Assembly (NCBI RefSeq): GCF_003725735.1
Contig: NZ_RJTM01000078.1
Span: 1-32,043 of the forward strand
Source of the DNA: Sinomicrobium pectinilyticum
Lineage (GTDB): Bacteria; Bacteroidota; Bacteroidia; Flavobacteriales; Flavobacteriaceae
Direction of reading: 5' to 3'
Length of the DNA stretch: 32,043 bases
Shown here: positions 8,951 through 28,889 of the stretch, piece after piece
Layout: every line of letters begins with the position of its first letter
Numbering within the stretch: the first letter of the stretch is position 1
The notes under the pieces: model-generated
Seen by the model: only the letters and a program-made list of their open reading frames with translations
Told to the model about the DNA's origin: nothing
The model's database searches: none
Program-made: the position numbers and the translations under genes

Positions 8951-10228
8951 ATGGACAACGCTTATTTAAAAAACCCAGAAGATCAATGGGATACCCAATG
9001 GTTTTTATTGCAGGGCGGGATTTATGAATCCTTCTGCTACGATACTTTTGAATCGTTTAATGCTAAACTTTGGCAATTAGTGGTGGCATTAACTTCAAGA
9101 AAGAAAAGGAACGATGAGGAAAAACAGCAGTTGACAAGGACGTTAGAAAAAATCGTATTGATGGTAAAGGGATGCCATTACTTTCTGCACCATAAAAAAC
9201 GCTTAAAATTCAAAGAAGACTGGATCGACATCAAATGGTGTAAAAATCCATATCGGTGCTTAAAAAAATACCGATCCAGGGAAGACAAAAAACTGAATCA
9301 TCATTTGGCACATTTCCAGGAGCCGTTTTCGATGCTTTCCCGGGAAGAAGCCCAGAATTTCACGATAGCTTTTAAGAACTTTTTCGCTGAAATGGACCTG
9401 TGTTCATGGCTTGATCTGCTGGACGATTGGAGGTCCTATTTGCAGCATGGTGAAAGCCTATTTGAGCTTATGGACTATACCCCTTTGAAGACTTACGAAA
9501 AACTAAGGACGCTGTATGAGGCCTGTATAATCAGCTATCATTGGGCTGAGATTAATTATCCGCCGCCCAATCACCATTTAATTGTGGATTACCTGTCATC
9601 GGAATATGTGGACGGCTATGGCAGTGCCAGTCCTTTCGACATGGCCGGGAGTGTGTTTTACGAGAAAAATTACGAGGATATCCGGCAGGACATCCTGGAT
9701 TTATATCCCTTATGCCCCTGTAAAAAGAAACAACTCAAGATAGAGGCAAATGATCTCCGGTCTACACTAAGGTGGTTACTGGAAACAGGGTGGTTGTTTT
9801 TGCAAACAGATTATTTCCCGAAAGACTGGTTGGACCCGGACAGCATTCACGCTTTGCATTGTCCGATTCCGGAAGCGGAATTGGAATACCACTGGATGCC
9901 TGAAAGTTTAAATTTCAAGGAACGAAAAAACCTTCGGAAGACCTTATCCAAACTGTATCACTTTATAGATGTACGGGAGGAAATACATGCTGTGGAAAGC
10001 AGGGTCATCCATCATTATTGTACAGATTCGCTGGAGGTGGAAATGGATGAGTACGATTTAAAAACCCGGAATCGGCTCCTGAAAATGCTGGATGTACTAA
10101 CCTTAATTGTTCTGGATTTACGAGAGCAGCGAACCAAGCCTGACGGTATATATTATCCGCCGAATACTGAAGATGCGGCAACACGAAAGGTCGAGGACAC
10201 AAGTCTAAACGAGGAAACATCATCATAA
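8951..10228 (+). CDS. unknown 425-aa protein of the HEPN block
   Basis: I do not recognise this protein. It has 425 residues, is cytosolic by appearance and very rich in Trp, Tyr, Asp and Glu, and is predicted mostly helical. A His/Cys-containing middle (YPLCPCKKKQLKIEANDL) and several HH pairs (LNHHLAHF, PNHHLIVDY, VIHHYC) are visible, but no known metal-site pattern. The C-terminal ~30 residues are a low-complexity acidic/Thr tail. The next gene begins 11 nt after this stop, so translation is likely coupled to the double NT-HEPN gene. It may be a partner of that protein; nothing in the sequence gives an activity. Confidence 0.75.
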   Translation: MDNAYLKNPEDQWDTQWFLLQGGIYESFCYDTFESFNAKLWQLVVALTSRKKRNDEEKQQLTRTLEKIVLMVKGCHYFLHHKKRLKFKEDWIDIKWCKNPYRCLKKYRSREDKKLNHHLAHFQEPFSMLSREEAQNFTIAFKNFFAEMDLCSWLDLLDDWRSYLQHGESLFELMDYTPLKTYEKLRTLYEACIISYHWAEINYPPPNHHLIVDYLSSEYVDGYGSASPFDMAGSVFYEKNYEDIRQDILDLYPLCPCKKKQLKIEANDLRSTLRWLLETGWLFLQTDYFPKDWLDPDSIHALHCPIPEAELEYHWMPESLNFKERKNLRKTLSKLYHFIDVREEIHAVESRVIHHYCTDSLEVEMDEYDLKTRNRLLKMLDVLTLIVLDLREQRTKPDGIYYPPNTEDAATRKVEDTSLNEETSS

Positions 10229-10239
10229 ATAGTTTTATT

Positions 10240-11952
10240 ATGGATAACATTAAAAACACTCCGGATGTCAAAGCAGTTATTGATGCCTTGACGACCAAAT
10301 TCAACATCGAGCAGATTTACCTGAATACCTACGACCAGGGAACTTCACCTTTCGAACTGGTCATCCTGGTATCGAGTAAATACATCAAAACGTTGGATGA
10401 TCTGGTTCCCAGGATTATGTATACCATCGGGAACTACCCGCAGTATAAGGTGATGTGTTACGTGGCCTTTCAGGCCAAGGATAAGATCAGGGAAGGAAAC
10501 CTGTATTTGTTTGCGTCCTGCCAGCCGCAGAAGCTCATTTACAAAAAGGAAGACTCTGAATTTGAGCCGATCCCCAAACAAATAGACCATGTAAAATGCA
10601 AAGAATTGGCTATTGCCCTACGTGACCGGGAACAACAGAAGATTGATGAATTTAAAGAAGGGTATTACTTTTTTAAAGAGAAAGAGAACTATGGACTGGC
10701 TTCATTTATGCTGCACCAGGCGGTAGAACTTACCTATCGGTACCTGGAGCTTCAACTTATTGCCAAAGAGCGCATAACACATTCTATTCGCGGCCACCAT
10801 CTGTATCTGAAGAGAATCAGTGCTGCGTATACAGGCATTTTTGATGAAGAAGACGACAATGATATCCTTTTGCTCCAGGTTTTGGATAACATCTATCGGT
10901 CGACGCGCTATGAAGATGATTTCCGGATTGATATCGACACGTTAAAACAGTTGGAATCAAAGATGGAAACATTACATACAAAAGCAGTGCAGGTTTTTGA
11001 GCATATTGTTGCTTCATTCGAGCAACAGCATGCAGTGGCACCGGTCCCAAACGATCAAAATGACGATTTACCCAACAAAACAAAAAGTATGAAACTGGAC
11101 GATAACAAATATTTGAAGGAGGCCATCGAGCAGTTAAAGGAGCGTATAAAAACACCTGTTGCGATTTACGTGTTTGGACATCGTGCACGGTCATTTTTTA
11201 TAGAAGGTATCAATGATACTGAAACCACCGGCATCCATGATGACCATTTCGATTTACTCGTGGTTAGTGAAACGTATGTAAGGGAAAAGGTAATGAGCTT
11301 ACAAGGCGAACTAAATAAACGGTTAGGGATTTCTTTATTGCTATTGTCCTATACGAAAGACCATATACAAAAGCAACTCGACAAGAACAATCCCTATTTT
11401 CATCGTGTACTGCAAAAAAAGGGTTCTTTACTATATGCGGGATTGGAAATCAACGATTGGTGTTTCCATGAGAACAATGGGGTCCGTACAGAAGAAGAGT
11501 TAAAAAAGTGTATGGCGAATTGGTATAAACGGGAAACTAATGCAAGCGGATTTTTTAATGGCGCGACGGCTATTGAAGATTCAGAGGAATTTGCGGTTAA
11601 AGTGCTTTTATACAACCAGGCCATGGAGCAGGCATCCCTGGGGTTGCTTGAGTCTTTTTACGGCTACACCCCGTACCAGCAAAACCTGAACCATTTGTAT
11701 AATCTATGTTGTAGCTTCTGGTATTTCCCTAATGACATCTTTCCCAGGTTTACTGAAGAGGACAAGAGGTTATTTAACGAATTTGCTCATGTGGTGAAGA
11801 GCGTTCTTTACAAAGGATTATCCTATATCGATTGGGATGAGGCTTTCCGGTATGAAGCAAGATGTGAACGGTTTCTTGAGGAATGCAGTACACTCGTCCG
11901 GGAAACTTTTTTGAAAAATAGCGAGCCTTTGCAGGATCCGGCGATCGTTTAA
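10240..11952 (+). CDS. tandem nucleotidyltransferase-like/HEPN-like protein, copy 1
   Basis: 570 residues in two similar halves. Half 1 (1-~265): an alpha/beta start (FNIEQIYLNTYDQGTSPFEL, then ILVSSKYI) like a degenerate MNT nucleotidyltransferase, then a helical HEPN-like part (YGLASFMLHQAVELTYRYLE, with YRSTRYEDDF near residue 222, comparable to the ...RYPD end of PF05168). Half 2 (~290-570): IYVFGHRARS (GHRAR, 313-317) and DDHFDLLVV (335-343) fit the nucleotidyltransferase GSxxR...DxDLLV pattern with the first Asp of DxD replaced by His, then a second HEPN-like helical part (LLYNQAMEQASLGLL, TPYQQNLNHLYNLC). MNT-HEPN pairs are known toxin-antitoxin modules. Here both are fused and doubled in one chain. 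Assignments are by eye. Confidence 0.7.
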   Translation: MDNIKNTPDVKAVIDALTTKFNIEQIYLNTYDQGTSPFELVILVSSKYIKTLDDLVPRIMYTIGNYPQYKVMCYVAFQAKDKIREGNLYLFASCQPQKLIYKKEDSEFEPIPKQIDHVKCKELAIALRDREQQKIDEFKEGYYFFKEKENYGLASFMLHQAVELTYRYLELQLIAKERITHSIRGHHLYLKRISAAYTGIFDEEDDNDILLLQVLDNIYRSTRYEDDFRIDIDTLKQLESKMETLHTKAVQVFEHIVASFEQQHAVAPVPNDQNDDLPNKTKSMKLDDNKYLKEAIEQLKERIKTPVAIYVFGHRARSFFIEGINDTETTGIHDDHFDLLVVSETYVREKVMSLQGELNKRLGISLLLLSYTKDHIQKQLDKNNPYFHRVLQKKGSLLYAGLEINDWCFHENNGVRTEEELKKCMANWYKRETNASGFFNGATAIEDSEEFAVKVLLYNQAMEQASLGLLESFYGYTPYQQNLNHLYNLCCSFWYFPNDIFPRFTEEDKRLFNEFAHVVKSVLYKGLSYIDWDEAFRYEARCERFLEECSTLVRETFLKNSEPLQDPAIV

Positions 11953-11969
11953 CCTAAAATCCTATTCCT

Positions 11970-13676
11970 ATGGAACTATCCGCACAACAAATCGTCAATA
12001 AGCTGATCCCCCTTATGGAAATCAGGATGATCTACCGCTCCGGGATTCAGCAGGAATTTTATCTTCAACCGGTGTTCATTATCCTGTTGGACAAGGATGG
12101 TACGGCACTGTCCCCGGAACTCCGGACTACGGTCGATAAAATATTCCGGGAGGAAAACGAATATTGCCTATACCGGGTATTCGCTTACGAATACACAGCA
12201 CAGCAATTAAAAGAGGAAAACCTGTTTTTTGTGTACGGCCTGAGAAAAGAAAATCTGGTCTACCGTAAACCCGGAATACCGGGTGATCCTTTCCCCGGAA
12301 TACCGGTAAATGAAGCCCTTTTCAGCCGGGTCAAAGACCGGTTAAAGCAGGAGTTCACCAAAACCGATCATTTTTGGGAAGGTGCTACCTTTTGTCTTGA
12401 AGACGAAGATCTTCGGCAAGCTGCCCTGATGTTCCACCAGCACATGGAATACGTATTCCGTATCATCGAACTTTTTGTCATGGGTAAAGAGATGGAAAGC
12501 CACAGTATCCGGGAACACCAAACCTACGTTGATGATTGTGTACCGGAACTCGGAGGTGTCTTTTTTGCGGAGATTGAAAATGAGCAAAAGGTATTGGACC
12601 TGTTGGATGAGGTTTATATTGCAGTAACGCACAGCAATAACTACCACATCAACCAGGAGCAGATCGATGTCATTAAGAGCAAAGCCGAATGGACTGCTAA
12701 TGCTGCGCGGAAGGTTATCAACCGCCAATACCATGCTTTGGAGTTGAAGCGCCTGGCGCCATCCGCTATGGTACATAAAGAATCTGACACGCAAAACGAT
12801 CCCAATAATGCAGCAAAGGAAACTGAAAAAGACCCGCTGTTAGAACAGGTTATTGAACTGTTGAAATCAAAAACAGACCTGCACTCGCTATATCTTATCG
12901 GCAAACAAAACAAAATTTCATCCCGAGAAACCTATGTAACTCCCACAGGTAAGGGGCATGAACAATCCGTAGCTTATACCTTGCTTATGGTCACCCATAG
13001 TCCTTTGCCCATACCGCTGTTTGAACTCACCGATGATATTTACAATCGACTGCCATGCCGGGTATATATTATTGACTATACGCTTGATGAGGTATGCTAT
13101 AAAGTAGACCGGGGCAGCAATTTCCTGGACCGTTTTTTAACGGAAGCCCTATTGCTGTTTGCTGAAGACAAGCGTCTGACTTCTTTAAACCGTACGCCTG
13201 ATTATCACGGAAAAAACTGGAAACGAATGCGCAAAGTTTGGAAAGCCCGGTCTAAGCGGGCAACCTACCTGCTCTCCATGCTGGTGGATGCGTACCAGGA
13301 AATGGACGAAGACCCCACGGTAAAAATGGGGATCATGCACTATGCGTTGGAACAGGTTTGTTTAGGATTGCTATACGTGTTCTGGGAGTTTAAGCCCGCT
13401 CATAATACCCTGTCTTTCCTGTTCCACTTATGCAACCATTTTACCAGTCTTCCCGATGACATCTTTTCCGGGGCTTCGCATACCAGGCATCATATGTATC
13501 ATCTCCTGTCCAATGCTCCCCACCAGATGCGGTTTAAATCCAAATCCGGCATTACCAAAAAAGAAGCTGAAAAAGCCTTTGTCCTCTGTAATGATTTTAT
13601 GGTACAGGCCCGGAAGGTGGCCGAAGCAGAACTCCAACGCCTAAAGCGGCTGCATTGTGTGGAAGCTGTTGTTTGA
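11970..13676 (+). CDS. tandem nucleotidyltransferase-like/HEPN-like protein, copy 2
   Basis: 568 residues, a paralogue of the preceding gene (17-nt gap) with the same two-half plan. Half 1: alpha/beta start (FYLQPVFIILLDKDG), ENLFFVYGLRKENLVYRK matching the copy-1 segment GNLYLFASCQPQKLIYKK, then a helical segment with AALMFHQHMEYVFRIIELFV and HSIREHQTYV (copy 1 has HSIRGHHLYL). Half 2: LHSLYLIGKQNK and AYTLLMVTHS, where the nucleotidyltransferase motif is fully lost (no GSxxR, no DxD), then MHYALEQVCLGLLYVFW and LFHLCNHF. The shared HSIR(G/E)HxxY motif is the most conserved piece and may be functional. Copy 2 looks like a non-catalytic partner; that is inference. Confidence 0.7.
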   Translation: MELSAQQIVNKLIPLMEIRMIYRSGIQQEFYLQPVFIILLDKDGTALSPELRTTVDKIFREENEYCLYRVFAYEYTAQQLKEENLFFVYGLRKENLVYRKPGIPGDPFPGIPVNEALFSRVKDRLKQEFTKTDHFWEGATFCLEDEDLRQAALMFHQHMEYVFRIIELFVMGKEMESHSIREHQTYVDDCVPELGGVFFAEIENEQKVLDLLDEVYIAVTHSNNYHINQEQIDVIKSKAEWTANAARKVINRQYHALELKRLAPSAMVHKESDTQNDPNNAAKETEKDPLLEQVIELLKSKTDLHSLYLIGKQNKISSRETYVTPTGKGHEQSVAYTLLMVTHSPLPIPLFELTDDIYNRLPCRVYIIDYTLDEVCYKVDRGSNFLDRFLTEALLLFAEDKRLTSLNRTPDYHGKNWKRMRKVWKARSKRATYLLSMLVDAYQEMDEDPTVKMGIMHYALEQVCLGLLYVFWEFKPAHNTLSFLFHLCNHFTSLPDDIFSGASHTRHHMYHLLSNAPHQMRFKSKSGITKKEAEKAFVLCNDFMVQARKVAEAELQRLKRLHCVEAVV

Positions 13677-17378: not shown

Positions 17379-18368
17379 ATGATATTGGTTTTAACTACAG
17401 AGTGGGGAGATTATTCTCACCCAGCTTTTATTGATTGGTTAAAATATTACAAGGCAAATTATTTTATTTTATCCGGTGAAGGAATACATAATGGCCGTTA
17501 TGACATTTCTCTGAAAGAGAATCAACTTATAATTGACGGGATTAATTTTAATAAAGAGATTTCGGTTGTACTAAACAGACGTTTTTTAACGATTAATGAA
17601 ATTCCTGATCTATACGAAAGAGATAAAAAACTGAATACCGGTTTGAAGAAAAGAATTTCAGATGAACTATACGAATTTCGTAATTTTTTGCCATTTATTA
17701 ATAATGCTTATTGGATTCCTGATAGAAACAGTACCCATGTTAATAAACTAAATGTCTTAAAAAAAGCCATGGATTTAGGCATTAATGTGCCGGCATATTT
17801 AGTTACAAATAATAAAAGTGATTTAATAACTTTTAAAAAAGAATATGCTCAAATCATAACAAAAGCTATTGGCAACTTCCAACCTGTATTTTCAGAACAA
17901 CATCATACTGTAAATCCAATTTATACAAAAGTAGTAAGTGATGAGCTAATTAAAAAGTTGTCACAAAACTTTGCCTTGAGTTTTTTTCAAGAACTGATTA
18001 CTAAAAAATCAGAATATCGGGTGCTCTATTTCATGGGCAATTTCTTTACAGTTGAACTTTTATCTCAGGAAAATCAACATACTTCAATCGATTCAAGAGT
18101 TCAAAATGATAAAAATGAGAACTTACGTCTGGTTAAAAGTGACTTACCCTTATTTATAAAAAGTAGATTGAAAGGATTAATGGATGCCCTAAACCTTAAT
18201 ATAGGATGCATTGATCTTTTAAAAGATATGACCAATGAGTATTTTTTTTTAGAAGTAAATCCAGTAGGGCAAATTGGGGGATACTCCAAAAGAGCAAATC
18301 TTAATTTTGAAAAGTTTATTGTAGAAAAAATAATTGATATTGATAATCAATGGACAAAAAAACATTAG
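17379..18368 (+). CDS. gwsG: ATP-grasp peptide maturase (grasp-with-spasm type)
   Basis: 329 residues. The start (MILVLTTEWGDYSHPAFIDW) and the C-terminal ATP/metal-binding region NEYFFLEVNPVGQIGGYS (E292-V-N294-P) are those of RimK-like ATP-grasp ligases, close to the family of the grasp-with-spasm peptide systems. An earlier SEYRVLYFMGNFFTVELLSQ strand pair and GCIDLLKD support the fold. It should activate Asp/Glu side chains of the precursor core as acyl phosphates for ester or amide bonding. Its end overlaps the next small gene by 19 nt, which overlaps the SPASM gene by 14 nt, so the three are translationally coupled. The symbol follows the system name and is not proven by homology search. 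Confidence 0.8.
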   Translation: MILVLTTEWGDYSHPAFIDWLKYYKANYFILSGEGIHNGRYDISLKENQLIIDGINFNKEISVVLNRRFLTINEIPDLYERDKKLNTGLKKRISDELYEFRNFLPFINNAYWIPDRNSTHVNKLNVLKKAMDLGINVPAYLVTNNKSDLITFKKEYAQIITKAIGNFQPVFSEQHHTVNPIYTKVVSDELIKKLSQNFALSFFQELITKKSEYRVLYFMGNFFTVELLSQENQHTSIDSRVQNDKNENLRLVKSDLPLFIKSRLKGLMDALNLNIGCIDLLKDMTNEYFFLEVNPVGQIGGYSKRANLNFEKFIVEKIIDIDNQWTKKH

Positions 18369-18580
18369 AGGAACTGGTTAATGATTTAACTGTTAACGGA
18401 CAATTGCCATTACCTTACTATGGGGCTAAAATTGTAGAACAAAAAGCTAATAGAGTTAATTCTTATAATCATTTGAATAAAGAAATAGTCCTTTCGGCTT
18501 TTAATAATAAATATAAACAAGTTAAAGTAGCTAGTGGTTACTTAGGTAAATTAAACACAAAAATATATGATTTACACTAA
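18350..18580 (+). CDS. 76-aa small protein between the two maturase genes
   Basis: Begins inside the end of the ATP-grasp gene and ends inside the start of the SPASM gene, so it is a true coding gene of the operon. The sequence (MDKKTLEELVNDLTVNGQLP, LPYYGAKIVEQKANRVNSYN, IVLSAFNNKY) is soluble and shows no GG motif and no Cys. It is probably not a second precursor. It could be a small adaptor or recognition element of the maturation complex. No family is recognised. Confidence 0.6.
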   Translation: MDKKTLEELVNDLTVNGQLPLPYYGAKIVEQKANRVNSYNHLNKEIVLSAFNNKYKQVKVASGYLGKLNTKIYDLH

Positions 18581-19658
18581 TTTGTACGATTGTTGTTCAA
18601 TACAAGTTGGAAAAAACGCGGGAGCGATTTTTGATTTTGAAAAAGGTGTTTATGTTAGTTTGCCATTAGAGTTTTGTGAAATCTTCATTGACGAAATTAA
18701 TATAATTTTTGAAGATAAATTAAAATCATTTGATGAACCATCGAGGAAAATATTAATTAATATTTTAGATTTTTTAATTGAGAATGGTTTTATATATCAA
18801 TCAAATGATTTGATATATAAGCGATATATTTCTGAAGAGTATTATTCCCCATTTGATGTTGAAAGTTTTATTGTTGACTTTGATGATATCAGGAAAGCAA
18901 TAACTTATTTAAAAGAAATTAGAGACGTTCCAGATGTTGAGTCCGTACAAATTAGGGTATTTGATATTCCCCTTTATTCTAAATTAAAAACACTTATAGT
19001 TTATTTAAACAAATTTTCATCCCAGTCAATTGAACTTATTATAAGGCATAGTCCAGAAATTACGGTAGAAGATTATATTTATCTCATAAATGATAATCCA
19101 CATGTTTCTAAACTAGTTATATTAAACCACTCTGCTATGCAAGTATTATGTGATGATAAGTTGGTTTTGCTTACCGATACAGCCATTAATAAAAAAAGCT
19201 GTGGTAAAATATCGGAAGAACTTTTTCAGGTTAATAATAGAACAGAAATTACTTCTAAAACTCGGAATTCGTGCCTTAACTGTAAAATATCTGTTGATGT
19301 GGACGGCAATATCAAAAACTGTCCCTCTATGCCGGAAAGCTATGGTAATATAAAAGATACTACTCTTCAAGAGGTTCTTAACAAACCCGGGTTTAAAAAA
19401 TATTGGAACATAACCAAGGATCAGATAGAAGTCTGTAAAGATTGTGAGTTCCGTTATGTTTGTACTGACTGTCGTGCTTATACCGAGCGCACTCATTTTA
19501 ATAAAGATAATATGGATTTTTCCAAACCGTTGAAATGTGGCTACGATCCTAATACCGGAGAGTGGGCAAAGTGGAGCACCAACCCATTAAAGAAAAAAGC
19601 AATAGAATATTATGGTATGCAAGATTTGGTAGAAAAGTTTAAACGAGTTCGTTGTTAA
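18567..19658 (+). CDS. gwsS: SPASM-domain peptide maturase without radical-SAM CxxxCxxC motif
   Basis: 363 residues. The C-terminal part has a full SPASM cysteine set: C236, C239, C252, C290, C293, C299, C302 and C324 (NSCLNCK, KNCPSMPESYGN, EVCKDCEFRYVCTDC, LKCGYDP), able to bind auxiliary iron-sulfur clusters. The N-terminal 230 residues have only scattered Cys (C9, C10, C37) and no CxxxCxxC, so no radical SAM cluster is expected. From memory this is a property of the SPASM partner of the grasp-with-spasm system. It would assist the ATP-grasp enzyme in modifying the 60-aa precursor. Its stop codon lies 6 nt before the first (degenerate) CRISPR repeat on the same strand, with no terminator between. 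Confidence 0.8.
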   Translation: MIYTNLYDCCSIQVGKNAGAIFDFEKGVYVSLPLEFCEIFIDEINIIFEDKLKSFDEPSRKILINILDFLIENGFIYQSNDLIYKRYISEEYYSPFDVESFIVDFDDIRKAITYLKEIRDVPDVESVQIRVFDIPLYSKLKTLIVYLNKFSSQSIELIIRHSPEITVEDYIYLINDNPHVSKLVILNHSAMQVLCDDKLVLLTDTAINKKSCGKISEELFQVNNRTEITSKTRNSCLNCKISVDVDGNIKNCPSMPESYGNIKDTTLQEVLNKPGFKKYWNITKDQIEVCKDCEFRYVCTDCRAYTERTHFNKDNMDFSKPLKCGYDPNTGEWAKWSTNPLKKKAIEYYGMQDLVEKFKRVRC

Positions 19659-19664
19659 GTCTCG

Positions 19665-19710
19665 AAAAGTTTCAACTGATACGAATTTAGATTTACCTAG
19701 GATTCACAGG
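19665..19710 (+). repeat. degenerate first CRISPR repeat (oldest end)
   Basis: Aligned to the 46-bp repeat, the first 23 positions are mostly decayed, but positions 24-46 match at every base except 26 and 27 (TAGATTTACC against TACTTTTACC, then an identical TAGGATTCACAGG). It precedes spacer GACAAAGAGA... (19711-19740). The left half would be needed only for a crRNA upstream, which does not exist. The right half holds the predicted promoter for the first spacer and is preserved. Confidence 0.85.
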
Positions 19711-19740
19711 GACAAAGAGATTTTTTAGCTGATGAAACTA

Positions 19741-21982
19741 GTTGTGAATTGCTTTCAGAATTGTACTTTTACCTAGGATTCACAGGATAGACATGAAGAA
19801 GATACTTTTTATTATAGTTGTGAATTGCTTTCAGAATTGTACTTTTACCTAGGATTCACAGGTATTAAGTGTAAAAAAACACCCCGAAAGGTGTTGTGAA
19901 TTGCTTTCAGAATTGTACTTTTACCTAGGATTCACAGGAGCCTTAGTAGCCGAATAGCTTATAACCCCGTTGTGAATTGCTTTCAGAATTGTACTTTTAC
20001 CTAGGATTCACAGGTCGGTCCCGTCATACTCTACCACCAATCCGTTGTGAATTGCTTTCAGAATTGTACTTTTACCTAGGATTCACAGGAAATTAATATT
20101 TTGTTGAGAATTATTTACGGTTGTGAATTGCTTTCAGAATTGTACTTTTACCTAGGATTCACAGGGGCGCAGGGGCGTGTCCCGGTCGATACTGGTTGTG
20201 AATTGCTTTCAGAATTGTACTTTTACCTAGGATTCACAGGTCCTATGACCCGGATAATTTCACCGACACGGTTGTGAATTGCTTTCAGAATTGTACTTTT
20301 ACCTAGGATTCACAGGGACTTAAAAAACTGGAATGAGGGGTATCGGTTGTGAATTGCTTTCAGAATTGTACTTTTACCTAGGATTCACAGGTCTTGAAGG
20401 TTCATGTAATTAATTCCAGTGGTTGTGAATTGCTTTCAGAATTGTACTTTTACCTAGGATTCACAGGCGATCCTTTCTTCCGCACGAACGGTCACCAGTT
20501 GTGAATTGCTTTCAGAATTGTACTTTTACCTAGGATTCACAGGCCCTCCGGTTAACTTTGAAGGAGAAGCGGGTTGTGAATTGCTTTCAGAATTGTACTT
20601 TTACCTAGGATTCACAGGAAGTTGTATTGTCAGAATAGCTTCCGTATGGTTGTGAATTGCTTTCAGAATTGTACTTTTACCTAGGATTCACAGGGAATTG
20701 AAAGCAAATTGGTTTGTCGTTTAAGTTGTGAATTGCTTTCAGAATTGTACTTTTACCTAGGATTCACAGGAACAAATTATCAGCGATTAACGAAGAATTT
20801 GTTGTGAATTGCTTTCAGAATTGTACTTTTACCTAGGATTCACAGGTTTCTAAGTCACATTGTATCATTTCCCAGGGTTGTGAATTGCTTTCAGAATTGT
20901 ACTTTTACCTAGGATTCACAGGATCTTCTCCGATTAATTGTCTTTCTTGTTCGTTGTGAATTGCTTTCAGAATTGTACTTTTACCTAGGATTCACAGGCG
21001 ATCAATTCGGATTTACCTATACGGGTAAGTTGTGAATTGCTTTCAGAATTGTACTTTTACCTAGGATTCACAGGTTTGGCTGTAGTTTTTGACGCTCTTC
21101 TCTGTTGTGAATTGCTTTCAGAATTGTACTTTTACCTAGGATTCACAGGTGACAGGAAAATGTAAAGAAGATTTTGAGAGTTGTGAATTGCTTTCAGAAT
21201 TGTACTTTTACCTAGGATTCACAGGCGTCGGCGCAAATACCTAGTTCGCTTGCGGTTGTGAATTGCTTTCAGAATTGTACTTTTACCTAGGATTCACAGG
21301 TGATGGATTGTATTAACCTGCACCAGTCTTGTTGTGAATTGCTTTCAGAATTGTACTTTTACCTAGGATTCACAGGCTTGGGGTATCTTCGAATTTTTGT
21401 CCTTTAGTTGTGAATTGCTTTCAGAATTGTACTTTTACCTAGGATTCACAGGTTAGGCTTGGATATAATTGATTCTATTGCTGTTGTGAATTGCTTTCAG
21501 AATTGTACTTTTACCTAGGATTCACAGGGAAGTCCAATTATGCAATGCGCCTACAATCGTTGTGAATTGCTTTCAGAATTGTACTTTTACCTAGGATTCA
21601 CAGGTCGCCATCCCGCAAAGGTAACTTAAACGTAGTTGTGAATTGCTTTCAGAATTGTACTTTTACCTAGGATTCACAGGTTCATGCCGCAAATAGACGA
21701 TATCGCTGGTGTTGTGAATTGCTTTCAGAATTGTACTTTTACCTAGGATTCACAGGGCGATAACAATTACCGGATCGAACAATGCTGTTGTGAATTGCTT
21801 TCAGAATTGTACTTTTACCTAGGATTCACAGGTCGCTTTGTATTTGTCGTGGTCAAGAAGCGTTGTGAATTGCTTTCAGAATTGTACTTTTACCTAGGAT
21901 TCACAGGATAGATGAAAGAGCAGAAGAAGCCGGAGAGTTGTGAATTGCTTTCAGAATTGTACTTTTACCTAGGATTCACAGG
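19741..21982 (+). CRISPR. CRISPR array, 30 identical 46-bp repeats, type II-C
   Basis: Thirty repeats starting GTTGTGAATTGCTTTC and ending CTAGGATTCACAGG, all identical as read, separated by 29 unique spacers; with the spacer before the first full repeat there are 30 spacers (22 of 30 nt, 8 of 29 nt). Repeat ends carry a 7-bp inverted repeat (TGTGAAT/ATTCACA) and a CCTAGG palindrome at positions 32-37. The first half pairs with the tracrRNA at 28736-28760, which fixes the crRNA strand as plus, opposite to the cas genes, as in other II-C loci. The degenerate repeat at the left marks the old end; new spacers are expected at the right end near cas2. No spacer match inside this window was noticed. 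Confidence 0.98.
19742..19771 (+). promoter_or_regulatory. promoter-like element inside each CRISPR repeat (first full copy shown)
   Basis: Within the repeat TTG (positions 2-4) is separated by 19 nt from TACTTTTA (positions 24-31), fitting the Bacteroidetes -33 TTG and -7 TAnnTTTG with only the last G changed to A. Transcription would start around repeat position 36-38, just before the spacer, giving a short pre-crRNA per spacer. The tracrRNA promoter has the same TACTTTTACC. In Neisseria and Campylobacter II-C repeats, embedded promoters are established; here it is inferred from sequence. Confidence 0.6.
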
Positions 21983-22016
21983 ATACCCGTTGTAAAAAAC
22001 TGGTATCCTGTTTTTT
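21978..22016 (+). terminator. array terminator built partly from the last repeat
   Basis: ACAGGATACC (21978-21987) pairs perfectly with GGTATCCTGT (22002-22011) across a 14-nt loop, followed by a T-run (to 22016). The first five bases of the stem (ACAGG) are the end of the last repeat. It stops array transcripts before they run antisense into cas2. Confidence 0.8.
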
Positions 22017-22052
22017 ATGCTCTAAACCAGGATTAAAAAATAAGAAGGATTT

Positions 22053-22409
<357 letters not shown>

Positions 22410-22434
22410 TCACTTTTGTTTCTTATAAGCCGGG

Positions 22435-22643
22435 GTTTCGGTACATTCCGGTCGGAGACCGGAACACTCAACCGCCTCCGTGTTTTATAACTGAGGTTGC
22501 TGTGTGGCCAAGCAAAGCAAAGGGCGTTCCAAAGCAACTGACGTTTCAGTACAATTGTCTCTGGCAATCACTCAACCACTTCTCTATTTTCCGGACTGAG
22601 GTTGCTGAGTGCCCGAGCGAAGCAAAGGGTGTACCGAAGCAAC
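22435..22643 (-). repeat. tandem ~103-bp duplication between cas1 and cas2
   Basis: Two diverged direct copies, 22543-22643 (101 nt) and 22435-22538 (104 nt). On the minus strand each begins GTTGCTT(C/T)GG, continues CCCTTTGCTT(C/T)GCT, CAGCAACCTCAGT and GGTTGAGTG, and ends GTAC(T/C)GAAAC. Each copy contains a GTTGCT...AGCAAC inverted repeat; the second also has CCGGTC-TCC-GACCGG. They resemble short palindromic repeats dispersed in flavobacterial genomes and would be transcribed as a folded spacer between cas1 and cas2. Confidence 0.75.
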
Positions 22644-22656
22644 CGTTTCGATAATT

Positions 22657-23550
22657 TCAGAACTCCGGATAAAGCACTCTCCTGCTTATACCTGCGAAAC
22701 AGTCGTATAAGCTATTGGTCGTACGGCTCATGGCTACCATTAAAGGGCTTTTTTTGCCATCTATGCTTACGTCCATTGCCGGAATGGTCAATAGCATTAT
22801 TTTTATATCCCGGTTAAGTTCCATGTACTCCCCTTCCTCCACTATTTCCCTAACGAGGCCGTCCACAAAAGGCCGGTAAGGTTCCATAATATCATCAGCC
22901 AGGCAGAAAGCATTGTACTTGTTGCGATGAAAAATACCGACGGAAGGCAACATACCACTGCTTACCAATGCTCTGGCCGTCACGGCACGTAAAATGGCAT
23001 AACCGTAATTGAGCAGGTTATTGGGTGGTACTCCTTTCTGATTACGGCTGAACCCATCTATATCGGCAAAGAGGAGTTGAAAATAATACGCCGCGGCAAT
23101 GGCTTCGTGGTTTTCGGCATCCCCGCTTTTTACTTCCCCGGCCCACCGACGCAGTTTTTTAACATTATGCCCGTAGCCGGATAAATGTGCCGCCTGGTTG
23201 CTGATCTTTGCCGTGACCGTCTGCTGCCACAGGTTCTTCTTCAGGGGCAAACTGGCGTTAAGTTGGTGACGCATACGTTCCGTTTGTTCACTATGGCCCA
23301 CCAGCGGCTGCAAAAAAGAACACGGCAGATGTTGTTTATCACAGGTTATTACCGCGGTCTTGTTTTGTACCAGTTTCATCAATAAGCCATTGGTAATGGT
23401 TATCTGCGGGTCTTCCAGGACTATGTATCCCAGATCTTCAATGGGGATAGTTGCAGGGCTCTTTTCTTCCTCCGGAAAATTCACTACCAACTGTTCGTTC
23501 CTGGTGCTCAGATAGGCGGGATTGCCGAAAAAGAGAGTGCGCTTTATCAT
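22657..23550 (-). CDS. cas1: CRISPR-associated integrase Cas1 (type II)
   Basis: 297 residues, normal type II length. It starts MIKRTLFFGNPAYLSTRNEQ, the typical II-C N-terminus. Metal-site residues are visible: E149 (AENHEAIAAAYYF), H208 (GIFHRNKYN) and the acidic cluster D219/D220/E223 (CLADDIMEPYRP). Together with Cas2 it captures and inserts new spacers at the array end. It begins 22 nt after the truncated rhuM-like gene, hence is read from the same transcript as cas9 or from a promoter within that gene. Confidence 0.97.
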   Translation of the reverse strand: MIKRTLFFGNPAYLSTRNEQLVVNFPEEEKSPATIPIEDLGYIVLEDPQITITNGLLMKLVQNKTAVITCDKQHLPCSFLQPLVGHSEQTERMRHQLNASLPLKKNLWQQTVTAKISNQAAHLSGYGHNVKKLRRWAGEVKSGDAENHEAIAAAYYFQLLFADIDGFSRNQKGVPPNNLLNYGYAILRAVTARALVSSGMLPSVGIFHRNKYNAFCLADDIMEPYRPFVDGLVREIVEEGEYMELNRDIKIMLLTIPAMDVSIDGKKSPLMVAMSRTTNSLYDCFAGISRRVLYPEF

Positions 23551-23572
23551 CGGTTGGCAATTAGTTGAACGA

Positions 23573-24016
23573 TCAATTGAACATTACTGTTTTCTGCAAT
23601 TGTTCCAGCTTTTTTTGGTTTACTGTATAGCCCTTTACAAGGTGTTCTTTTAAGTGTTGTGTTGCCCATTGGCGAAATTGAGTACCGCGTTTGGAGTTCA
23701 CGCGATAACCTACGGATAGAATGGCATCTAAGTTATAATATTCGACCTGCCTGGTTTGTGTTTTTCCTTTGACCGCCCCGTGTTGAGTGGTCGTTGCATT
23801 TTTTGCAACAACCACTTCTTTCTGCAATTCACCAGAGTCAAAAATATTTTTAAAATGCCTTGAAATAATAGATTTATCCCTTTCAAAAAGAATAGCTATT
23901 TGATTAAGGGACAACCAAAAAGTTTCCACTTCAAATTGAACCTCTACTTGTGCTCCTTCTTCTGTTTTGTATATTGTCAATTCCCTTAACAACACGTTTT
24001 TTTGCAGAACAGGCAT
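23573..24016 (-). CDS. truncated RhuM-like protein inside the cas operon
   Basis: 147 residues. IYKTEEGAQVEVQFEVETFW, LSLNQIAILFERDKSIISRH, FKNIFDSGELQ, then VEYYNLDAILSVGYRVNSKR and GTQFRQWATQHLKEHLVKGY form the RhuM domain, containing a helix-turn-helix-like DNA-binding part. Full RhuM proteins are about twice as long; here the C-terminal half is missing and the protein ends (KKLEQLQKTVMFN) just before cas1. It sits 47 nt after cas9 and 22 nt before cas1 in the same direction. RhuM is not a known Cas protein. It may be a remnant left by an insertion, or a small regulator recruited to the operon. All of the conserved core is intact and open. Confidence 0.8.
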   Translation of the reverse strand: MPVLQKNVLLRELTIYKTEEGAQVEVQFEVETFWLSLNQIAILFERDKSIISRHFKNIFDSGELQKEVVVAKNATTTQHGAVKGKTQTRQVEYYNLDAILSVGYRVNSKRGTQFRQWATQHLKEHLVKGYTVNQKKLEQLQKTVMFN

Positions 24017-24063
24017 ACGCTTGTGGATTTTAAGTCTTCCATAATTATGCTTTAATTTTATAA

Positions 24064-27000
24064 CTATTTTTTAGCTTTTGAAATATTCCCCAATCTATCA
24101 ATCTTTAGTTTCCAACAAATTTCTTTAATCCTTATCTTATCAAAATCCATTGTGGTCTCAAGCTTATTTTGACTCGATAATTCACCCAATTTGGTTTTTG
24201 CATCATACTGTTTAATCAATTGAGCAATATCATGTCTAATAAAATAACATTCATTACCAGATGCTTTCTCCATCTTATATACTCTGTTCGTTTGCTCTTT
24301 ATTTAAATTCTCAAAATCTACTAAACTCGGATTTTCAATTTCTTCATCAGTGGGCACGTATACTAAATCATTGGGAGATAGCGTAAACATGAATTCTCCT
24401 TTTTCTGGTTTAGGTTGAATAGGTGTACGTTCCTCCTTTGGTAAATGAGCTACTTGTTTCTGATGTGCAATCACTTCATTTAAGGGAATCGTTTCAAAGT
24501 TTCGTTTTTGTTTTTCTTTATCCCAATAAACAGCGAAGAAAAGATTGGTTCCTTTTGCAGCTTCTACGTACTTTTTAGCATTGTTCCCCGTTTCTCCAAC
24601 CTGAAATTTACTTCCAATTTCAAACTGTTTGACTTTTCTTATTGGTTGATGATTTTTGCCTTCGTTAAGTTGTACGATATTTTTGTTCAAATCTTCTATA
24701 CCTTCTTCACTAAATGCTAAATCATACTGTGCCTTACGTTTTTCATCCAGATAATTCTTTAAATGATTGGGTAAAATCACTTCCCGAATTCTTTGGTCTG
24801 TAATTTTAGCCAATTGTTTTTCATTTTTAATTTCTGAAAGCGCAGTTCTGACAGAGGTTGCAATCTTTCCTTTCGGCGTGTCAATATTATATAATCCCGA
24901 AACGGTTTCTTTATGCAACGATTTCCGAATTGACCAACTATCTCCTTTGGTTTGTTTTCTCAATTTCTTTTTGGGTTTACCGTCTTTCCCTTTATTAAAA
25001 TTCCCGTTTTCACCCGTATACGACCAAAATTTGTTAATGGTCTTGTTAATCACTCTTGTATTTTGTTTGAAACTGACAACGGTTTCTTCCAACGCTTTTC
25101 TGACTTCTACAGGAAACCCAACCCAAGGCATTTGAAACGTCTTGGTATAATCGCCTTTTTCGTTCTTTATAAGCAGTTTATCTCTTAAGCCATAATTCTT
25201 GTTCTCTGCATTCAAAGCACTTAAATAATGTGTGTGGTTTCTTGTAGTACAGGCAACAACCAATGCATCTAAAGCGTGATGTCGATGGTCAATCCTTTTC
25301 TTGTTGAATCCTTTGCTGATTTCGTCCGGAACTTGAATCCGGAACGCATTGATTTCTTTATCCCAAAATCCGAATTTATCAGACTTGGTTAGTACATTTA
25401 ACCGCTTAAATCTCGGAGCAATAATTTCATTCCATTTATCATTTAATCCCCAGTCTTGTTTCAGCTTGGACGTTATCGTGCCGGTTACCGGAATTAATTT
25501 TTTAGAAGTTGCTTCCCGTTCATTTTGTTCTCGAACAATATTGCTCAATAAACCTTTTATCAGTTTACTAATATATCTGCTGTCATTCATCTGACGGTTG
25601 ATAAATCCTTCGGGAATATCTTCACTTAGCAGGTTTTTAAGTTTTAGTTTGTTATTTTTGAAATATTTGGAAACGTGAGACTCGAATTCTTCTAATTTGA
25701 ATAAGCGATGTCCATTAATAGATTCACCACCTTTTTCCTTTAAATATTCGTACGCTGTTTTGTTACCTTTATCGTCGTTCACGTCTCTCTCACAAATAAT
25801 TTTATTGCTTAATGAGTTGTCAAAATAACGGGATTGTGGAATAATATGTTCAATATCATATTCCCGGGTAAACAATTTTGATAACTGAATCGGCTTACCT
25901 GTATAGGGTGAGATATATCCCTGCTCCAGCCAAAGTTTATAACGAATAATGTCGTTTTTGGACGGATTGTTGTTCCTCCTGATTTTTTGAACTTCATCTT
26001 CACTTACTTTATCATATTTCACATCAGGATTCTGATATATGCCTTCTTCATATAATTTTAGCAAATCCTGTTGACTGGGTGAATAGGGCCTCACCTCTCC
26101 CTGTACTTCGGGATCGTTCATCAACTCTTGCAAAATTTCCTTGATGCGATAATTGGTATTTTCATTTTCCGAAATTCTTTGCGAAATCTGCTTCCGTTTA
26201 TCTGCCGGATTTTTCATTTCGCGGCCTAATTCTACGTGAATCTCCTCGAAGAACTTATGGTAACTTCTTACTTTTTTCTTTTTTCGCTCATCATATACCA
26301 TTTCATAGGGGACATTGTCCTTTTCTGCATAATACTCCCATATATCTTTGACAACCCGTAAAGTTTCTGTGACAATCTGTTCAACTATCGGATTACGTAA
26401 TGAGTGTTGCTTAAATTCATACAAATAATTTTGTATATCGTACGACATTTCCCATTGCTGGATTTCTCCGATTTCCGAATGCCGGTCATAAACGACATAA
26501 CTTGCTAGCCATAAAGGAAGTCCTCTGAAGTCTGATCTTTCACTTAAACTTATCGTTTTCTCACGAACACGGTTTTTGATTTTTTCATCATATTCCCCGT
26601 CAATTAGCTTTTGAATTCTATTACTTGTGTTGTCATCAATAAATACTTCATCCCAATATTTCCCCACTCGCATCAGCGGAAGTAGTTTTTCAATAGCCTT
26701 TTTGGAATAGCTTCCATAATCACTGTCAAACGGAGGAAATTTTATAAAATGTTCTACAAACGAATCTTCATTAATACTATGCTTTTGTGCAAATTTTTGA
26801 AGTGCGCTTTTGTATTCATTCAAATCTTTTACAGAATAAATAATATGCCATAATTGTTCTTCTCTGCTAATTAAAGGGCTATTTTCTTTCTTGCCAACCC
26901 GCGTTTTTTCTGAAAGAAAGTAGTTTGTATTCTCAATTCCTTCAACCTTATTCAATCGGCTGGTAAACTGAACCCTTGTTTCACAACAAGGGTATTTTTT

Positions 27001-28575
27001 TGATTCTTTCTTTTCTTCATCATAAACATAGTTCCAACGATAATTATCTTTATTCGCTTTATTCAAAGATTTCTTTTTGATAAAATAATCAATGATATGT
27101 TTTTGTTCTACTGTTTGTTTTGTAGTTAAAAAATCAAACAAATCTGTCCAGTCATCCTCTGTTTGTAGCAAATCCGCAGTGAGATCTTTTTCCTTTCCAT
27201 CAATAATCGTTTCCTTGTTATAAATTCTTAAGTTTTGCAGCCATTGCCATAAACGAAATTCCTGAAAAAGTGGATGCGATTTTGAAATAGCTTTAACAGG
27301 TTCTTTTACAATTTCTTCTTTTCTGGTTTTCTCGTTCTTCTTTTTATACTCTCTGAACTCAAATTGACAACCGGCAATATTGGATTTTTGACTCCTTAAC
27401 GGGCGTTGGTAAAAAAGAATGTCTTCTGTAAACAAATGTTCAAACCCCTTATCCTGAATACTTGTGCGATGTGCTTCATTTCTCGGGTAAAGCTCTTCTA
27501 TGCACTTTTCGTAAAGTTCCTTAGTAAATAATTCCGGCTGTAATTCTATTTGTCTAAATATGATTTTACGAAATTCCTCTTTATAGAATTTTCTTTCTAT
27601 AGTTTTTACCAGCTTTCCCCTTATTTTTTGTGTCGGGGTGTGGAGCAAGGTATCGTAAATATATTCTCCAATGGTTTTATCCGATTGATCAATATCCTGT
27701 TCGGTCTTTGCCTTGATGGCTATCCAATCTTTCTCCGAATCTACTGCTTTGTATGTTCTTTTGACTTCTCCACTGGTAAGTGTCTTCGTGGTCACTATAA
27801 ACTCTTTTGTTCTTCCCTCCCAACCCTCTACTTTGGTTATTTGTCTGTCATATTCCCATCCATTTTCAAAAATTACATTATACAATGTATTTCCTTTAAC
27901 TTTTTCCCCCGTGTCTAATACTTCTTTTACTTTAAGCTGTATAAATTGTTTATCCTTATCCTCGTCAATTTCCTCCCCTCGTAACTGATAATATCCACGT
28001 TTTTGATTAAAATTGAGAATAATCCACGCCAGTTCTTCCTTATCTATTCTTTGAGATAAAGCTTTTTTACGTAAATAGTAAATGGTCCAGTCATACGGTA
28101 TTTTTGTCTCCTGACCATTTGGTTTTACATAAAACAGCTGTGGCTGTTTTTGTTTAAAATCGCTTACCATTTCATTAAACGACCTCATAAAAAGAAACTT
28201 GTACTTCCCTGACTCATCTTGGCGATAGTTTATTTTTTCTTCTGTACCTGGTTTAAACTGACCTAAATTCCTTATAAAATCTATAGAATCAGCATAATGT
28301 TTTGGTAAAAACCCCAGAATATTCAAAACTCTATGTAAGCGTTCACGCCGCAAATTATCGCGTTGGTATAATCTTCTTACTCCTCTGTAACCTGTTCTTT
28401 CCTCAGTTTGCGAATGTGATAGTCCGGAATCAAACTTTCCTAATACATCCTGGCTCATAGGTATAATACGGCTTCCCAGACGAAGAATGCTCCCTTCCTT
28501 ATTATCAAAATCCTGTTCAATGAGCGCCCACCCTATCGAGTTTGTCCCCAAATCCAATCCTAAAATTCTTTTCAT
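24064..28575 (-). CDS. cas9: Cas9 endonuclease, type II-C (large Bacteroidetes form)
   Basis: 1503 residues, in the range of large Bacteroidetes Cas9 proteins. RuvC-I: MKRILGLDLGTNSIGWALIE with D8. Arg-rich bridge helix: GYRGVRRLYQRDNLRRERLH. RuvC-II: HVELGREM with E782. HNH: YDIEHIIPQSRYFDNSLSNK with H910. RuvC-III: RIDHRHHALDALVVA with H1100 and D1103. All nuclease residues are present, so it should cut both strands guided by crRNA:tracrRNA. The C-terminal ~350 residues form the PAM-interacting part, whose PAM cannot be read from sequence. No cas4 or csn2 is found, consistent with II-C. The coding sequence is AT-richer than the rhuM, cas1 and cas2 genes after it. Confidence 0.98.
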   Translation of the reverse strand: MKRILGLDLGTNSIGWALIEQDFDNKEGSILRLGSRIIPMSQDVLGKFDSGLSHSQTEERTGYRGVRRLYQRDNLRRERLHRVLNILGFLPKHYADSIDFIRNLGQFKPGTEEKINYRQDESGKYKFLFMRSFNEMVSDFKQKQPQLFYVKPNGQETKIPYDWTIYYLRKKALSQRIDKEELAWIILNFNQKRGYYQLRGEEIDEDKDKQFIQLKVKEVLDTGEKVKGNTLYNVIFENGWEYDRQITKVEGWEGRTKEFIVTTKTLTSGEVKRTYKAVDSEKDWIAIKAKTEQDIDQSDKTIGEYIYDTLLHTPTQKIRGKLVKTIERKFYKEEFRKIIFRQIELQPELFTKELYEKCIEELYPRNEAHRTSIQDKGFEHLFTEDILFYQRPLRSQKSNIAGCQFEFREYKKKNEKTRKEEIVKEPVKAISKSHPLFQEFRLWQWLQNLRIYNKETIIDGKEKDLTADLLQTEDDWTDLFDFLTTKQTVEQKHIIDYFIKKKSLNKANKDNYRWNYVYDEEKKESKKYPCCETRVQFTSRLNKVEGIENTNYFLSEKTRVGKKENSPLISREEQLWHIIYSVKDLNEYKSALQKFAQKHSINEDSFVEHFIKFPPFDSDYGSYSKKAIEKLLPLMRVGKYWDEVFIDDNTSNRIQKLIDGEYDEKIKNRVREKTISLSERSDFRGLPLWLASYVVYDRHSEIGEIQQWEMSYDIQNYLYEFKQHSLRNPIVEQIVTETLRVVKDIWEYYAEKDNVPYEMVYDERKKKKVRSYHKFFEEIHVELGREMKNPADKRKQISQRISENENTNYRIKEILQELMNDPEVQGEVRPYSPSQQDLLKLYEEGIYQNPDVKYDKVSEDEVQKIRRNNNPSKNDIIRYKLWLEQGYISPYTGKPIQLSKLFTREYDIEHIIPQSRYFDNSLSNKIICERDVNDDKGNKTAYEYLKEKGGESINGHRLFKLEEFESHVSKYFKNNKLKLKNLLSEDIPEGFINRQMNDSRYISKLIKGLLSNIVREQNEREATSKKLIPVTGTITSKLKQDWGLNDKWNEIIAPRFKRLNVLTKSDKFGFWDKEINAFRIQVPDEISKGFNKKRIDHRHHALDALVVACTTRNHTHYLSALNAENKNYGLRDKLLIKNEKGDYTKTFQMPWVGFPVEVRKALEETVVSFKQNTRVINKTINKFWSYTGENGNFNKGKDGKPKKKLRKQTKGDSWSIRKSLHKETVSGLYNIDTPKGKIATSVRTALSEIKNEKQLAKITDQRIREVILPNHLKNYLDEKRKAQYDLAFSEEGIEDLNKNIVQLNEGKNHQPIRKVKQFEIGSKFQVGETGNNAKKYVEAAKGTNLFFAVYWDKEKQKRNFETIPLNEVIAHQKQVAHLPKEERTPIQPKPEKGEFMFTLSPNDLVYVPTDEEIENPSLVDFENLNKEQTNRVYKMEKASGNECYFIRHDIAQLIKQYDAKTKLGELSSQNKLETTMDFDKIRIKEICWKLKIDRLGNISKAKK

Positions 28576-28723: not shown

Positions 28724-28731
28724 TACTTTTA
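28724..28731 (+). promoter_or_regulatory. tracrRNA promoter -7 element
   Basis: TACTTTTA, followed by CC, gives the same 10-mer (TACTTTTACC) as found in every CRISPR repeat. It predicts a start at about 28736-28739, exactly where the anti-repeat begins. No clear -33 TTTG is seen; the upstream region is a T-rich tract. Confidence 0.6.
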
Positions 28732-28736
28732 CCATA

Positions 28737-28813
28737 CAATTTCTGAAAAGCAATTCACAATAAGGATTATTCCGTTGTGAAAACATTCAAGGCGGGGCAA
28801 CTCGCCTTTTTTT
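28737..28813 (+). ncRNA. tracrRNA
   Basis: ACAATTTCTGAAAAGCAATTCACAA (anti-repeat, about 28736-28760) is complementary to the first 26 bases of the repeat with two single-base bulges. Then comes the nexus-like TAAGGATTATTCCGTTGTG and the terminator hairpin AAGGCG-GGGCAACT-CGCCTT with a T-run. It pairs with the repeat part of the crRNA and is bound by Cas9; RNase III would trim the duplex. It is transcribed divergently from cas9, on the same strand as the array. Confidence 0.93.
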
Positions 28814-28889
28814 GTTTCATTGTTTTCTCGAATGTTTCACGAACACCGTTAAAAAACAATAAAAAAACTTGTGAGCTAAAACATTTAGT

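Follow-up and report, generated by a model that had tools for sequence, protein, structure and literature searches.

Transcription of CRISPR arrays from promoters carried by the repeats is established for some type II-C systems. In Campylobacter jejuni, the repeats hold promoters and the RNAs start at spacer position five (PMC3656092), and PMC10309648 and PMC5006608 attribute repeat-embedded promoters to Neisseria meningitidis. The Bacteroidota promoter consists of a −7 element, TAnnTTTG, and a TTTG around −33, the latter not being identified in F. johnsoniae (PMC7366714). In Flavobacterium columnare, the TTG found 33 bp before each spacer has been interpreted as a putative repeat-encoded −33 element, and eight reads mapped to the array in the expected direction (PMC8092290); the same TTG proposal is followed for F. 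psychrophilum (PMC10309648). For Riemerella anatipestifer, the authors of PMC5006608 reported that they found no promoter in the repeats and that a neural-network tool was applied to the leaders. Feussner et al. 2025 observed that 60% of the extra repeats of II-C arrays carry mutations, which lie mainly within the first 15 nt and weaken tracrRNA pairing; they explain this by extraneous crRNAs, and their discussion mentions that the extra repeat must remain a promoter (PMC12080349). As a TTG repeat promoter (PMC8092290) and a promoter-retaining extra repeat (PMC12080349) are thus both in print, the proposal made by a first, sequence-only reading of the DNA described here, namely that each spacer is transcribed from its own repeat and that the promoter half of the terminal repeat is preserved, was already known in outline.

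The window, that is, the whole 32,043-nt stretch of Sinomicrobium pectinilyticum DNA analysed here, contains a type II-C CRISPR-Cas9 locus in which the cas genes lie on the minus strand and the array and tracrRNA on the plus strand. Profile matches among the ORFs of 22053-28575 identified cas2 (22053-22400, TIGR01573), a type II cas1 (22657-23550, TIGR03639) and cas9 (24064-28575, 1503 aa, TIGR01865), without a fourth cas gene in the operon. The sole further minus-strand ORF of at least 80 aa in this interval (23573-24016) lies between cas1 and cas9 and matches Virulence_RhuM (PF13310, E 1.2e-24, residues 69-140), an unusual guest in a cas operon; it is possibly truncated, because the match spans only profile positions 2-70 of 252. 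The array occupies 19665-21982 (+), from a degenerate repeat through the last intact one, and its direction of transcription was deduced from the anti-repeat. From the polarity of the array, the stretch between array and cas2 (21983-22052, +) is likely to be the leader (integration) side, and it resembles by eye the corresponding stretch of a locus from the same genus (L062). Immediately upstream of the array, 17379-19658 (+) encodes two maturases, an ATP-grasp and a SPASM protein, of a grasp-with-spasm peptide modification system, with matches to TIGR04192 (below its cut-off) and TIGR04193; the second of them stops 6 bases short of the degenerate repeat. Elsewhere in the window, three successive large ORFs fill 8951-13676 (+) and are possibly unrecognised defence genes; of these, the central ORF (10240-11952) matches HEPN weakly (PF05168, 25.1 bits for a cut-off of 22), and the two flanking it have no Pfam match.

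The intact part of the array (19741-21982, +) is made of 30 identical 46-nt copies of GTTGTGAATTGCTTTCAGAATTGTACTTTTACCTAGGATTCACAGG, the first at 19741-19786 and the last at 21937-21982, with 29 intervening spacers of 29-30 nt; one further spacer of 30 nt (19711-19740) precedes the first intact repeat. All 30 copies display the layout pointed out in the sequence-only reading: TTG at positions 2-4, a 19-nt gap at 5-23 and TACTTTTA at 24-31. The first complete promoter-like unit, TTG-N19-TACTTTTA, is located at 19742-19771 (+). Compared with TAnnTTTG, TACTTTTA agrees in T, A, T, T and T, and its final base is A where the consensus has G, as in 29 of the 54 unique box-bearing repeats of the survey described below. 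The TTG belongs to the common start of type II repeats and is for this reason not independent evidence for a promoter; its 19-nt distance from the box is the one at which the spacing of tracrRNA promoters peaks.

A promoter scorer was built from a box matrix of 49 tracrRNA promoters, that of the window being excluded, and gap weights from 50. Against 218,795 background sites, the intact repeat reached p=0.0003, with a slight bias in favour of repeats as their gap is the best of five, the degenerate repeat p=0.0019 and the tracrRNA promoter of the window p=0.0018. The TACTTTTA box alone stood at p=0.001 of the background. Moreover, 30 of the 35 best plus-strand sites within 19641-21990 fell at repeat position 24, and on the minus strand of the array a single site equalled the repeats (11.5 at 21623), the next best scoring 7.5.

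We then asked whether the box is conserved at a fixed offset in related repeats. Cas9 was searched for in 299 genomes from the family and 396 from the class, and 65 and 99 were over the cut-off. The regions taken numbered 158, of which 60 came from the family (60 of the 64 over the cut-off besides the window's own) and 98 from the class search, where G591 and G315 were left out and one genome below the cut-off, G656, was taken in; a single-protein scan for Cas9 relatives yielded one locus only. With the window and L001 added, 108 of the 160 loci scanned contained arrays, 113 in all. Setting aside four second arrays, a 30-nt repeat family in L137 and a repeat unlike II-C (L175) left 107 repeats, 83 of them long (45-47 nt) and 24 short (36-38 nt). 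The locus of the same genus, L062 (G288:C17), was not counted, fewer than three regularly spaced copies being readable beside its masked stretches; its box reads TATCTTGT, off consensus, and its leader is like that of the window.

The box was indeed conserved at that offset in many of the long repeats. TAnnTTT[AG] was found 18-20 nt past the TTG in 57 of 83, compared with a mean of 0.8 and a maximum of 6 in 1000 rounds in which the sequence after position 17 was permuted, and in 29 of 51 members of a non-redundant set (less than 85% alike), compared with 0.5. It was present in 31/35 family-level repeats, counting those of the window and L001, and in 26/48 from the class search; allowing at most one mismatch raised the count to 72/83, for 9.2 in shuffled repeats (maximum 17, 300 rounds). 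The gap between TTG and box among the 57 was 19 nt in 34, 18 nt in 21 and 20 nt in two, and the reverse-complement motif occurred in just one of the 51 non-redundant repeats. When 28 unique family-level repeats of 46 nt were compared at the fixed offset, whether or not they carried the box, the TA and TTT columns were conserved and the nn and neighbouring positions varied. By the scorer, 73 of the 83 long repeats ranked within the top 1% of the 218,795 background sites and 64 within the top 0.1%. A putative repeat-embedded promoter of the Bacteroidota type is well supported by these comparisons. Among the short repeats the exact box was found in 0/24. Fourteen of them presumably form a class that we call F. 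columnare-like, partly on account of their 36-nt length, and here the box was missing in all 14 even with one mismatch; four of the other ten carried a one-mismatch box. One genome of the class holds both a 37-nt repeat (L100, G382:C28), which we take to resemble Neisseria-type II-C repeats, and a 47-nt array of the Bacteroidota type (L101), pointing to transfer or contamination.

The tracrRNA genes provide an internal reference for what a promoter looks like in these loci. In the window, the tracrRNA (28735-28815, +; fold z-score −3.9, end placed by eye) comprises an anti-repeat that matches repeat positions up to 25, two hairpins and then a T-rich sequence. The anti-repeat begins at 28735, one base past the −7 box TACTTTTACC (28724-28733, +), which is the same 10-mer as repeat positions 24-33; no TTG is present at the usual distance from it. 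Anti-repeats were found in 99 of the 107 loci, including 79 with long repeats, and with nine of these excluded, which probably were remnants of arrays or lay next to Ns, 70 were usable. In 50 of the 70, TAnnTTT[AG] starts 4-15 nt upstream of the anti-repeat, compared with 2% at random places, and the tracrRNA therefore most likely starts at the anti-repeat. The most common distance from box to anti-repeat was 12 nt (18 loci); the box lay further upstream in one of the 70 and was not found in 19. For these 50 promoters, the gap to a TTG peaked at 19 nt (14), with five at 18 and six at 20. The 10-mer that repeat and tracrRNA promoter were said to share is thus present in the window. As a sign of linked control it was rejected: the nn bases were identical in 2 of 40 loci, compared with 3.6 after shuffling, and the common 10-mer is no general feature. 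Of the 18 usable loci with short repeats, ten have the tracrRNA box starting 16-26 nt before the anti-repeat, two have it nearer and six have none; in some of the short-repeat loci, such as L041, L042, L082 and L087, the 36-nt repeats are without a −7 box.

At its leader-distal, transcription-upstream end the array opens with a degenerate repeat (19665-19710, +). Aligned without gaps to the intact copy, it is identical at 5 of 23 positions in 1-23 and at 21 of 23 in 24-46, where the only changes are C to G at 26 and T to A at 27; its −7-like box, TAGATTTA, lies at 19688-19695 (+). The view that this copy keeps positions 24-46 apart from 26 and 27 is therefore correct, but not that it keeps exactly the promoter part, since positions 2-4 read AAA, the −33 TTG being lost, and positions 32-46, the 15 nt past the box, are perfectly retained. 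If a gap is allowed, the copy aligns as GAATT-TAGATTTACC with a single base absent and the match begins at position 18, which means that the pairing half may be partly preserved.

Terminal repeats were compared across long arrays with a gap-aware walk, one-base indels occurring in copies of L001, L070 and L088; 18 of the 83 arrays (contig ends, N runs) and L070, whose last step was judged spurious, were left out, leaving 64. The first repeat was intact in 16, had its junction 1-3 bases from the 5' side in 7 and had lost more in 41. One explanation for this 5'-side decay, to which we give slightly better than even chances, is that upon read-in this half would yield a useless, extraneous crRNA, so that loss of pairing is favoured or tolerated and the 3' part is mostly left unhit. 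The II-C extra repeats of PMC12080349, 60% of them mutated and mostly in the first 15 nt, fit this explanation, as do the 48 of 64 long arrays with 5' loss and with junctions variable between positions 1 and 28, whether or not the exact box is there. Indeed, 5' loss was also seen in 15 of 21 long arrays without an exact box at that gap (several with a one-mismatch box) and in 6 of 22 short arrays, and the loss itself is therefore not promoter-specific. In the window, a co-directional ORF (18567-19658, +) stops 6 bases before the degenerate repeat, and the only terminator-like site on the plus strand of 19400-19760 (19474-19490) lies inside this ORF. Taken alone, however, avoidance of extraneous crRNAs does not account for the finding that just 2 of the 64 junctions lie beyond position 24, nor for substitutions that avoid the TA and TTT positions. 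It is compatible with an embedded promoter and competes only with the part of the earlier claim that concerns the terminal repeat.

The box was retained in the terminal repeat of 38 of the 43 box-bearing arrays; it was lost in L077, L088, L090, L127 and L151, in three of them by a junction within or past the box. The junction lay at or before the start of the box in 30 of 33 cases (p=0.002 if junctions were spread uniformly over 34 positions). In the retained parts of 33 terminal repeats, from which positions removed by the junction are omitted (L077, L090, L151), substitutions numbered 1/158 at the fixed TA and TTT positions, 5/62 at nn, 13/340 before the box, 14/517 after it and 0/33 at the last base of the box, where the gapped alignment of L088 hides a lost base. 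The fixed positions differ from nn with p=0.007, or p=0.069 without the window, which prompted the question, gave two of the five nn changes and had its share per class entered by hand. Fixed positions plus last base (1/191) compared with the other retained positions (32/919) gave p=0.03, or 0.048 without the window, and the fixed positions compared with the part after the box gave p=0.21 in both cases. Selection on the box in the terminal repeat thus has modest support: substitutions avoid the fixed positions, less clearly so when the window is left out. The idea that selection has preserved the promoter half agrees with the contrast between fixed and nn positions; the variable junctions and the values without the window and for the part after the box weigh against it. 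Terminal repeats tend to keep the box, which is neither the full promoter nor the box alone. Re-creation of a TTG at the right distance upstream of shortened terminals (6 of 30, L070 among them, with 3.4 expected) was not clearly above chance. In L178, the upstream terminal repeat appears to be interrupted: a GC-rich palindrome (CCCGCCAGAGGCGGG) separates roughly its first 15 nt from the TATCTTTG half.

The conserved box could also serve another purpose. A reading that we hold to be unlikely is that the mid-repeat TA....TA is kept because it forms a small hairpin, pairs with tracrRNA or anchors Cas1-Cas2 integration from within the repeat, and not because it is a promoter. In its favour, the bases flanking the box can pair in 22 of the 29 unique TAnnTTTA repeats, compared with 14.5 after shuffling (fraction 0.0035), with a covarying closing pair; yet the box, complete with the consensus G, persists in the 25 unique TAnnTTTG repeats, where these bases pair in only three. 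A small hairpin may thus add a constraint in the A-ending class, and it leaves the G-ending class unexplained. As for pairing, local alignment without G-U pairs in the 50 usable box-bearing loci showed that 14 anti-repeat matches end before the box, 19 end within TA and 17 run further, five of these as far as TTT. As the match covers TA at least partly in 36 of 50 loci, pairing may add to the conservation of TA, but not to that of TTT in the 45 where it ends short of it, and tracrRNA pairing is insufficient as the whole reason for conservation of the box. The TTG-box spacing, which is the same as in tracrRNA promoters, also speaks against this reading. Finally, we regard it as very unlikely that the array is a single precursor made from the upstream gene or an external promoter, with the box as inherited baggage: the co-directional gene that stops at 19658 and the only eight reads mapped to the F. 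columnare array (PMC8092290) would suit it, but TAnnTTTG occurs within 150 nt upstream of long arrays about as often forward (10/62) as reverse (9/62), so by that test there is no conserved external promoter, and the box is conserved in 29 of 51 non-redundant repeats.

We therefore return to the repeat-embedded promoter. Judged from the sequences, it is quite probable that each 46-nt repeat of this array holds a complete promoter for the housekeeping sigma factor, and that the terminal repeat loses its 5' half and usually keeps the box. Points against this reading are the final A of the box, the TATCTTGT of L062, the five of 43 terminals that lost the box, and the exact box in just over half of the long repeats from outside the family. 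The TTG at positions 2-4 would lie near −33 and TAnnTTT(A/G) at 24-31 near −7, and both would be recognized by the housekeeping sigma factor of the Bacteroidota. If transcription starts about 12 nt past the start of the box, as it seems to do at the tracrRNA, we infer a start at about repeat position 36-37. The transcript would then take in ~10 nt from the end of the repeat, followed by the spacer and the next repeat. The first half of that next repeat would pair with the tracrRNA, itself starting at the anti-repeat from its own box, and the transcript would be trimmed. That each spacer is transcribed from its own repeat, as was suggested at the outset, is made plausible by the box at the right distance from the TTG in 57 of 83 long repeats, with a tracrRNA-like spacing. 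Because no spacer precedes it, the oldest repeat would be free to lose its 5' pairing half; as it usually keeps the box and the downstream part, spacer 1 could still be transcribed, probably more weakly without the TTG. In addition, the upstream gene ending only 6 bases away makes read-through possible, and a repeat without its pairing half may then give no extraneous crRNA. Retention of the promoter and avoidance of such RNAs can act together.

More generally, the sequences incline us, if only slightly, to the view that most 45-47-nt II-C repeats of the Bacteroidota are dual-purpose, one half being the crRNA handle and the other a full mid-repeat promoter read by the phylum's own sigma factor, and that their pre-crRNAs start inside the repeat. 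If so, the ~10 nt beyond the usual repeat length of 36 nt, which is also that of the C. jejuni repeat, would be the downstream sequence of the promoter, and the lineage with 36-nt F. columnare-like repeats would have lost the mid-repeat promoter or would never have had one. Spacer-by-spacer transcription would then extend from Neisseria and Campylobacter to the Bacteroidota, a major gut and aquatic phylum, with a promoter code of their own, and each stored viral memory could be turned on separately. This would explain the expression of Bacteroidota arrays that lack a 5' leader promoter and would predict the exact 5' ends of their crRNAs. We also speculate that a II-C repeat may lose its own transcription when transferred into a host that uses a different sigma factor.

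Compared with the systems described so far, the proposed arrangement is closest in principle to that of C. jejuni and N. meningitidis, in which every repeat starts the transcription of the next spacer from a −10-type element in the repeat (PMC3656092 for C. jejuni). The C. jejuni box, however, ends the repeat, whereas in Sinomicrobium a Bacteroidota-type box stands in the middle of repeats of a 45-47-nt class and the predicted start lies within the repeat. F. columnare and F. psychrophilum share with this locus the Bacteroidota II-C type, transcription toward the leader and the TTG as −33 element (PMC8092290, PMC10309648), but the accessible parts of these papers name only the TTG for the repeat and no −7 box, and the F. 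columnare-like repeats of our survey contain TAnnTTT[AG] in 0 of 14. Feussner et al. 2025 likewise describe an oldest repeat that decays mainly in its first 15 nt; the available text of PMC12080349 neither discusses the Bacteroidota box nor compares substitution counts within it and elsewhere. In the part of the literature covered, we found no published description of a TAnnTTTG box within long Bacteroidota II-C repeats. The idea of a repeat promoter is thus already known from other bacteria, and the present comparison adds a putative Bacteroidota −7 box common to many long repeats of related bacteria.
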